A program made the translations under genes and the position numbers. Of a DNA stretch of 45,480 nucleotides, positions 43,582-45,480 are shown in pieces. The stretch is from Opitutales bacterium (GTDB taxonomy: Bacteria > Verrucomicrobiota > Verrucomicrobiia > Opitutales > T3Sed10-336). Numbering within the stretch: the first letter of the stretch is position 1; every line of letters starts with the position of its first letter. Location: positions 1-45,480 of the forward strand of contig SLTG01000038.1 of assembly GCA_007130045.1 (NCBI GenBank). Reading direction: 5' to 3'. The notes beneath the pieces are model-generated. The model saw nothing but the letters and a program-made list of their open reading frames with translations. It made no database searches and had not been told where the DNA came from.

Positions 43582-43901
43582 AATGCAGCTTAACCGATAA
43601 TACCTTTCACCCCCAACCGGGCAATCGTGAATAGGCGATTAATTAAGAATGCTTCCGGCGGAACTGTCGATCCCCGAGTGTCCGGTGTGGGAATCGGCGA
43701 ATCGGGGACCGGGGGGGGCCGGCCCCGTATCGCGCGCGGGCTCCGTTCAGCCCGCCGCGCCCCCTCCGTTCCGGGGAAATCCCTATGATCCGGTTCGTGT
43801 TCGGGGCCGGGTGATTTTTGTTGTCCATCACCGCGAACTGATTTTTGCTGAACGGAGAACCCTCCACTTCCATCCCGGAAGCCATACACCGATTGATTTC
43901 A
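43582..43901. other. Intergenic region with GC palindrome
   Basis: About 320 bases between the divergent Sel1 and anchored-protein genes, with no supported gene. An 8-base G-run opens a perfect palindrome, GGGGCCGGCCCC (43715-43726), of unknown role. Both promoters should lie here but no clear hexamers are seen. Confidence 0.45.
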
Positions 43902-45227
43902 ATGAAAACAAGGAAACACAAACGACTCGACGCAGCCCTCCTGGTTCTGTTTCTGCTCGCCGTGGGCGGCCTCGGTTACGGGGTTTACTCCATCTTCGGA
44001 GGCTCAAGCGACGGCCCGGTCGAAGCGGCGGCTCTCGATGAAGCCGAACTCATGTTCCACGTGCATTTCGGTAATCTCGAAACGTCGGCATTCGCCCGCA
44101 GCCTGGATACCGGTCAGGCTGAGGACCTGGCCGGAATGCCCCCGGAATTGATCCGCTTTCGCGAGGCATTGGGGATTGGGCGGGAGGACCTGGTTGAAGG
44201 ACTCGTTTCGCTGGCGGGGTTGAATGCGATCCAGGAGGGCCGATTTGACGCCGTTGGAATCGCGGGCGCCCTGCGAATAGACGCGCCGCTCACCCTCGAT
44301 AGAATCGAATCGGCCATCACCGATGCGGTCCCCGCCGAACAGCGCGAGTCAATCAGCCGCATGGAAATCGAAGGCCGCCCGGCTCTCGGGTTCGCCGTCC
44401 CGGATATTGGAATCACCGTTGCCGTGGCGGTCTTCGAGCGCGATGAAACCGCGTCCACTCTTTATTTTGGAGATGAGCGCTCCCTTCGATCAACCCTCGC
44501 CAAACTCGGCACTCGCGGTGAAAGCCGCCTTCCCGGCGCGATGCGTGAAGGCAAGGAATCGATGATGCCCGACAGTCACGCCATGCTGATCGTCTCGATA
44601 CCTTCTCAGGCTCAGGCACAGCTCCGTGAGGGAGTTGCCACATCTCCGATTCCCCTGGGTCCGGCCGGCGACGCAATCACGACCCTACGGCGGGCCGGCC
44701 TGGCGATCCGGGCCAACCAGTCCCTTGCCGTTCAACTCGTTCTCGGGCTCGGAAGCGCCGCGGACGCCCTGGCCGTTCAAACGGCGGTAAATGAAACCTT
44801 TCTTCCGATAGCACAGATGGCGGCACAGCAACAAACCGGATCCATCCCCCCATTTCTCGGACAGCCCCGAACAGAGGTCGTTGACAACAATTTTTCCCTC
44901 TTTTTATCGCTTTCAGCCGACGAAGTCGAACAGCTCATGGAATCCGCCCCGCAACAGATTCCGATGACCGCGGAAGGGCCTGTGGCCGGCCCGTCTCAGG
45001 ACGATCCCGGAACCGCGGAACCCGAGACGACGCCCTGGCCGACACTTCGAATCGATGCAACAACACCTGAAACCGGCGAAGCCGTGATCAATGGACTGGT
45101 CGTCTCGAAACGCAGCGAGATCGAGGGTGTCATCCTTTTCGACCTCGACGAACGGGGGGTTATTCTGAGGCGCGACCGGGAATACCGGTACGTCAATATC
45201 GGGGATACCGTGGGAACGGCCGATTGA
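43902..45227 (+). CDS. Membrane-anchored protein of unknown function
   Basis: A 441-residue protein from ATG 43902. A basic start (MKTRKHKRLD) and one helix (AALLVLFLLAVGGLGYGVYSIF) anchor it, with the rest probably periplasmic. The body has alternating beta and alpha parts (ELMFHVHFGNLETSAFARSL; ALAVQTAVNETFLPIAQMAAQQQ), a Pro/Thr/Glu-rich linker near 370-390, and a C-terminal beta stretch (AVINGLVVSKRSEIEGVILF). I recognise no family. The repeated 'beta-helix' design recalls anchored solute-sensing proteins but no function is supported. Confidence 0.75.
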   Translation: MKTRKHKRLDAALLVLFLLAVGGLGYGVYSIFGGSSDGPVEAAALDEAELMFHVHFGNLETSAFARSLDTGQAEDLAGMPPELIRFREALGIGREDLVEGLVSLAGLNAIQEGRFDAVGIAGALRIDAPLTLDRIESAITDAVPAEQRESISRMEIEGRPALGFAVPDIGITVAVAVFERDETASTLYFGDERSLRSTLAKLGTRGESRLPGAMREGKESMMPDSHAMLIVSIPSQAQAQLREGVATSPIPLGPAGDAITTLRRAGLAIRANQSLAVQLVLGLGSAADALAVQTAVNETFLPIAQMAAQQQTGSIPPFLGQPRTEVVDNNFSLFLSLSADEVEQLMESAPQQIPMTAEGPVAGPSQDDPGTAEPETTPWPTLRIDATTPETGEAVINGLVVSKRSEIEGVILFDLDERGVILRRDREYRYVNIGDTVGTAD

Positions 45228-45257
45228 CAGGACGCGCTCGAACGTTCTTTTATACGC

Positions 45258-45291
45258 CAGGAGTCTGTCGGGCTTCGCCGACAGACTCCTG
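45258..45291. repeat. Long perfect hairpin
   Basis: A perfect 14-base stem (CAGGAGTCTGTCGG/CCGACAGACTCCTG) closed by GCTTCG lies 30 bases after the anchored-protein stop. It has no T-run on either side, so a repeat-type element is more likely than a terminator. It flanks the inverted-repeat element to its right. Confidence 0.7.
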
Positions 45292-45294
45292 AAA

Positions 45295-45446
45295 GAGGAA
45301 ATATCATGGCAAAAGAAGTAGGAGTTTTTATTTTGGATCACTGTCCGAGAACCATGTTTATTGAAATTCCACATCAATTACGGACTTGTTCATCAATCCA
45401 TTAAATATTGGAGCCTTATGCACCCATTTTGCCATGAAATTTCCTC
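45295..45446. mobile_element. AT-rich inverted-repeat element, possible MITE
   Basis: GAGGAAATATCATGGCAAAA (45295-45314) recurs inverted at 45427-45446 with 19 of 20 bases identical. The intervening 112 bases are AT-rich, unlike the flanks. Each arm carries a good ribosome site and an ATG pointing inward: a 32-residue frame on plus (45306-45404) and a 25-residue frame on minus (45435-45358). Neither is recognisable. A non-autonomous mobile element, an inverting segment or the end of a larger element beyond the window could all fit. Confidence 0.45.
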
Positions 45447-45466
45447 CGTTAGCAGCTTGCCGGACT

Positions 45467-45480
45467 TAGCCCGCGGGCTA
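45467..45480. repeat. Perfect palindrome at the window edge
   Basis: TAGCCCGCGGGCTA is fully self-complementary and ends the window. It may be part of a larger structure that is cut off. It lies on the far side of the inverted-repeat element, opposite the hairpin at 45258-45291. Confidence 0.5.

Follow-up and report, generated by a model that had tools for sequence, protein, structure and literature searches.

The window analysed here is a stretch of 45,480 nucleotides whose end is also the end of contig C130 in the source assembly (G000), a draft of 3.4 Mb in 146 contigs. Its last gene (43845–45227, + strand) encodes a protein of 460 aa with no Pfam match. Downstream of this gene lies a REP-like hairpin (hairpin A, 45258–45291, + strand; CAGGAGTCTGTCGG-GCTTCG-CCGACAGACTCCTG) with a perfect 14-bp stem and a 6-nt loop, followed by an inward-facing arm (GAGGAAATATCATG..., 45295–45314, + strand), an AT-rich, non-coding core of ~110 bp (45315–45426), the inverted arm (45427–45446, − strand), and the 5′ half and centre of a long hairpin B (45450–45480, + strand). 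The initial annotation had described two 20-base arms matching at 19 positions in inverted orientation, and both direct reading of the sequence and a self-match (95% over 20 bases) bear this out. Each arm also carries the reported ribosome site and start, a GAGG followed after 7 bases by an inward ATG-GCA-AAA, with the ATG at 45306–45308 on the + strand and at 45435–45433 on the − strand.

The hairpin and the palindrome noted outside the arms are both present, although the palindrome (TAGCCCGCGGGCTA, 45467–45480) is not a separate feature. It is the centre of hairpin B, which is ~48 bp long, because the other half of this hairpin starts the reverse complement of contig C14, whose first 11 bases are the last 11 of C130; C14 ends in the same half-hairpin. 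A PP2C gene (Pfam) lies near this end of C14, and the join is independently supported because the left gene and the PP2C gene are neighbours in relatives. Once joined, the repeat copy is 242 bp long, starts at position 45257, overshoots the window end by 18 bases, and has a right end (GCTGCTAG) that recurs in several relatives. The outer ends of the unit, AGGAGTCTGTCGG... and ...CCGACAGGCTGCT, are imperfect inverted copies of each other. Several contig ends of the same assembly carry hairpins of this repeat family: at G000:C37:87-118 and G000:C100:6552-6583 one hybrid hairpin recurs together with its left flank, and these two contigs probably overlap because both end near it. Such repeats fragment draft assemblies, as the window shows by ending inside one.

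A search of 53 genomes with the region, in which scoring was limited to 14 candidates per genome, gave strong matches in G000 and G002 of the same genus and in G003 and G006 of another genus of the family, among the matches listed; the next-best genome among them outside these four carriers was G001 (E = 0.010). The carriers make up four of the eight genomes of the family, and their copies lie at different loci. Allowing up to 3 mismatches, a scan for the arm pattern located 7, 16, 30 and 20 places in G000, G002, G003 and G006, respectively, against 0–1 in each for a reversed control; the four remaining family genomes had 1–3 places each, against 0–2 for the control. The 73 arm places in the carriers form 19 pairs within 400 bp, all of them inward-facing (19/19) and 13 of them spaced 134–135. 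Copies were thus found in the source genome and in relatives, as the initial annotation had proposed to check, and the sequence is neither single-copy nor covered by a normal gene.

We aligned 23 copies (G000, 2; G002, 5; G003, 10; G006, 6), in which the conservation of arms and hairpins is partly a matter of ascertainment, since the copies were found through them. Two core types occur among the aligned copies: a majority type and the type of the window, which is shared with G002:C84 (74% identity) and, over a partial stretch of 96 bases, with G002:C96.

Beyond the family, a scan for the exact 19-base arm in named genomes returned 15 stretches, eight of them in Opitutia/Opitutales MAGs (PXBO, PWMU, SLOW), which we take from the isolate names to be of soda-lake sediment origin. 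The remaining seven hits occur singly in other groups, and three of these lie in Tannerellaceae MAGs (L124, L128, L135), where a chance match is possible. In a class-wide search of 384 evenly drawn genomes, five matched (G002, G003 and G006 are missing from this list, probably because they were not drawn), and a hairpin together with an arm was found in the source genome only; the other four matches are partial, hairpin-like in three genomes and a 31-base arm-side stretch in G397. Among plasmids and phages, nothing matched the one full copy compared with them (L031) at E 0.001.

Gene order in relatives indicates that the window copy is inserted. Orthologues of the left gene adjoin the PP2C gene in all three relatives in which both neighbours were found (G001, G002, G003), and none of the three stretches contains an element match. 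In G001 and G002 the left gene stop and the PP2C start are 16 bp apart; in G003 the two genes adjoin after a longer gap, with only the first 26 PP2C residues falling within the stretch compared. In the source genome the two genes lie 417 bp apart and the element takes up 242 of these, so the relatives clearly have an empty site, though one that is not base-exact. The copy on C17 lies between divergent GST and ResB genes (Pfam), a pair that occurs without the element in G006. An insertion shared with G002:C170 was considered and rejected, as the two elements flank the orthologous GST gene on different sides. The element of C82 is absent at the orthologous gene in G002, and we do not count this as an empty site because the second neighbour was not found there.

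The inward start signals had been read as a means of starting translation on both strands, and they are indeed conserved in the aligned arms, with ATG in 44 of 46 (GTG and ATC in one each) and GAGG in 40 of 46. The frames that follow these starts run for 4–99 codons on either strand and share neither length nor product. In the window, the two arms open frames of 32 and 25 codons, and the 32-codon frame (45306–45404, + strand, with its stop) is carried by no relative and was judged not to be a gene. A 43-residue core peptide had no convincing relatives in the eight genomes, the only other matches reaching E values of 0.54 and 0.56; with such a peptide and with frames from both arms that are not conserved, the core was rejected as a gene. 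Because the arm start codons lead to no conserved frame, we do not regard the element as a gene. That ribosomes initiate at both arms as a working two-way start is extremely unlikely in view of these frames and the missing protein relative, and the start signals belong to the sequence partly used to find the copies, so their retention leaves translation from both strands unsupported as a function. It is very unlikely, too, that ribosome loading, on the strand that happens to be transcribed, is what maintains the arms, for instance by protecting the transcript or coupling its translation through the hairpins; if so, this would be an intergenic repeat with orientation-independent ribosome entry sites. 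The available parts of the literature on such repeats yielded nothing on mirror-image start sites, which is weak evidence of absence. Most likely, the mirrored SD-ATG arms belong to the unit simply as sequence in inverted orientation, possibly a former transposase start, and do not work as start sites.

The claim that the region is more structured than chance would give holds, both in the excess of arm hits over the reversed control and in its folding. As single-stranded DNA, the window copy folds to −46.4 kcal/mol, compared with −23.2 ± 3.5 for shuffled sequences (0/200 as low; z = −6.7). Paired changes, whose counts are weakened by the relatedness of the copies, occur in 5 of 14 pairs of hairpin A (shuffled mean 1.7; 1/500 shuffles as high) and in 9 of 22 pairs of hairpin B (shuffled mean 2.3; 0/500), the latter based on the eight of 23 rows that keep both halves; the window copy also keeps both halves after the C14 join. 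The 18-bp stem formed by the arms shows two (2/18; shuffled mean 1.3; 193/500 as high), and 12 of the 23 copies fail to form one of its pairs. Because paired changes exceed shuffles in the hairpins and not in the arms, we consider structure to be conserved in the hairpins and sequence in the arms. For the whole structure, including 15 rows with hairpin B broken or cut, 26 of 54 pairs show paired changes (15.3 ± 2.3 shuffled; 0/500), and sliding the partners lowers the share of paired cells from 78.8% to 51.2% or less. RNAalifold alone recovers the stems of hairpin A and of the arms and misses hairpin B; its covariation term, +0.32, amounts to no bonus.

The stable fold, the paired changes in the hairpin stems and the intergenic position of the copies (0/22 element loci with flanks spanned by a larger ORF under a crude longest-ORF rule, some copies overlapping the end of a called ORF by up to 63 bp) are what one would expect of a structured RNA or a regulatory element retained because it serves the host, for instance by protecting mRNA 3′ ends or insulating genes from one another. 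We regard this as quite unlikely: the two comparable sites are not common to relatives, the orientation of the surrounding genes is not constant (11 tandem, 3 divergent and 3 convergent among 17 loci with both neighbours called), four loci gave no Rfam match, and the arm stem lacks covariation beyond shuffles.

Hairpins also occur alone. In the four carriers we found 92 hairpin-A-type matches at up to 3 mismatches, compared with none in the other four family genomes and none for the reversed control; 21 of the 92 have an adjoining arm match at up to 3 mismatches and 71 do not, although in some of these the arm may be too degraded to match. The hairpin B half is present in the same four genomes and once in G001, where we found one A/B hybrid hairpin and no whole element. 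Many of the lone hairpins are such hybrids, with A's left end fused to B's right end as a deletion between the two CCGACAG copies would leave them. Three further genomes of the class contain similar hairpins with no arm within the ~40–75 bases examined. The lone hairpins beside whole elements resemble REPIN singlets beside doublets, and the available part of PMC3116915 regards REP singlets as remnants of REP doublets.

The element has many copies, a fixed architecture, empty sites in relatives, no conserved frame, paired changes in its hairpins and lone hairpins. We propose, with a probability of roughly 60%, that the window copy belongs to a short, non-coding, non-autonomous mobile intergenic repeat that behaves like a REP dimer of the REPIN/BIME type. 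Going by the available parts of PMC3116915 and PMC8266576, the likeness to REPINs and BIMEs lies in the inverted REP-like palindromes, the spacer with pairing ends, the intergenic position, the occurrence as singlets and doublets, and the paired changes in the hairpins. Two inverted palindromes and a spacer able to fold together are seen in the 23-copy alignment and in the fold of the window copy, and the many hairpin-A-type matches and unspanned element loci agree with numerous intergenic copies. Judged against the same parts of these sources, the element differs in its long spacer with strongly conserved arms, its near-perfect palindromic end hairpins, its missing GTAG tag and the lack of a cognate RAYT found nearby.

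According to the available part of PMC3733652, the tags of described REP families are GTAG or CGTC, the spacers of REP dimers may be complementary at their ends, and Opitutus terrae is rich in GTAG repeats. This species belongs, as does the source, to the class Opitutia. As far as this source describes them, those families share with the element their small, palindromic and intergenic nature, hetero-dimers, complementary spacer ends and the class Opitutia; here, by contrast, the outer bases are mostly CTAG or CCAG and stem-paired, and the hairpins measure 32–48 bp. Among 63 hairpins, the outer four bases are CTAG in 36, CCAG in 17 and others in 10, and they lie in the stem, whereas GTAG or CGTC near the left end occurs in 2 of 63. 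Since nearly all ends lack such a tag and no linked RAYT (TnpA-REP) gene was found among the transposase loci described below, we do not file the element as a REPIN. Because the available part of PMC3733652 reports both the GTAG-rich Opitutus terrae and spacers with complementary ends, the kind of object is already known, and the initial statement that no ordinary feature explains the structure fails, as an intergenic palindromic repeat is an ordinary kind of feature that does. Its description as an inverted-repeat element stands, in that it has relatives in its own and other genomes and is inserted; the two-way translation attached to that description does not.

Mobilisation by a transposase encoded elsewhere is the further step that we infer. 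A tyrosine (HUH, RAYT/IS200-like) transposase made elsewhere would act in trans on the element, recognising the end hairpins on single-stranded DNA, and the lone hairpins would be leftovers of the element. Y1 (RAYT/IS200-like) transposase genes are present in all eight family genomes (86 matches). Among 30 of these 86 loci, which include all 15 matches of the four carriers and were covered to ±1.5 kb where the contigs of these draft genomes allow, none has an element hairpin or arm close by; only two matches reach E ≤ 1, one 13 and one 18 bases long (E = 0.64 for each). G005 and G007, neither of which carries the element, hold 30 and 32 of the Y1 matches, far above the 1–8 found per genome in the rest of the family. 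By eye, four RAYT-like genes of G000 and G001 (L053, L054, L060, L067) are flanked by inverted GGGGTCAG / CTGACCCC, a terminal repeat different from the hairpins of the element, which end TAGGAGTCTGTCGG / CCGACAGGCTGCTA.

The unit could also be a classical MITE, an internally deleted insertion sequence of the DDE-transposase type in which the arms or outer ends are the terminal inverted repeats and the SD-ATG is a left-over transposase start, a possibility that we rate well below the REP-dimer reading. It would account for the SD and ATG in the arms, and the size of 242 bp, the inverted ends and the lack of coding capacity match the bacterial MITEs that the available part of PMC3733652 lists (RUP, NEMIS, ERIC), which are 70–300 bp long, non-coding and situated beside genes. 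Unlike those, the element has no identified parent insertion sequence or target duplication. Beside single arms (13 loci in draft genomes), Pfam found no transposase among nine inward ORFs of at least 90 aa, eight of which match non-transposase families and one none; at four of the 13 loci the inward side is short or cut by a contig end and has no such ORF. An autonomous parent between two hairpins 3 kb apart on G006:C31 was rejected, as the contents are a sigma-54 regulator and an M50 peptidase. The initial annotation had suggested looking for an adjacent transposase and for target duplications: no transposase was seen adjacent to the element, and in copies with both ends no duplication is visible by eye, the CTAG ends being palindromic and hence ambiguous. 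CTAG at both outer ends could conceal a TA or CTAG duplication; however, the outer T-A looks like element sequence and not duplicated target because its two bases pair within hairpin A and 3 of 23 rows have C-G in its place. That lone hairpins outnumber hairpins with an arm also speaks against a MITE.

The element represents a new repeat family, with an unusual conserved inverted arm, for a group of uncultured Opitutia, though of a kind already familiar. Its transposase, once found, would tell whether REP dimers without the GTAG tag move in the same way; apart from the arm and the transposase question, the element is ordinary genome furniture. A second short palindromic repeat, about CAACCCGGCGGAGCCGGTACCA, was seen by eye near single arms or truncated copies at L083, L089 and L096 (G002, G006 and G003, respectively).
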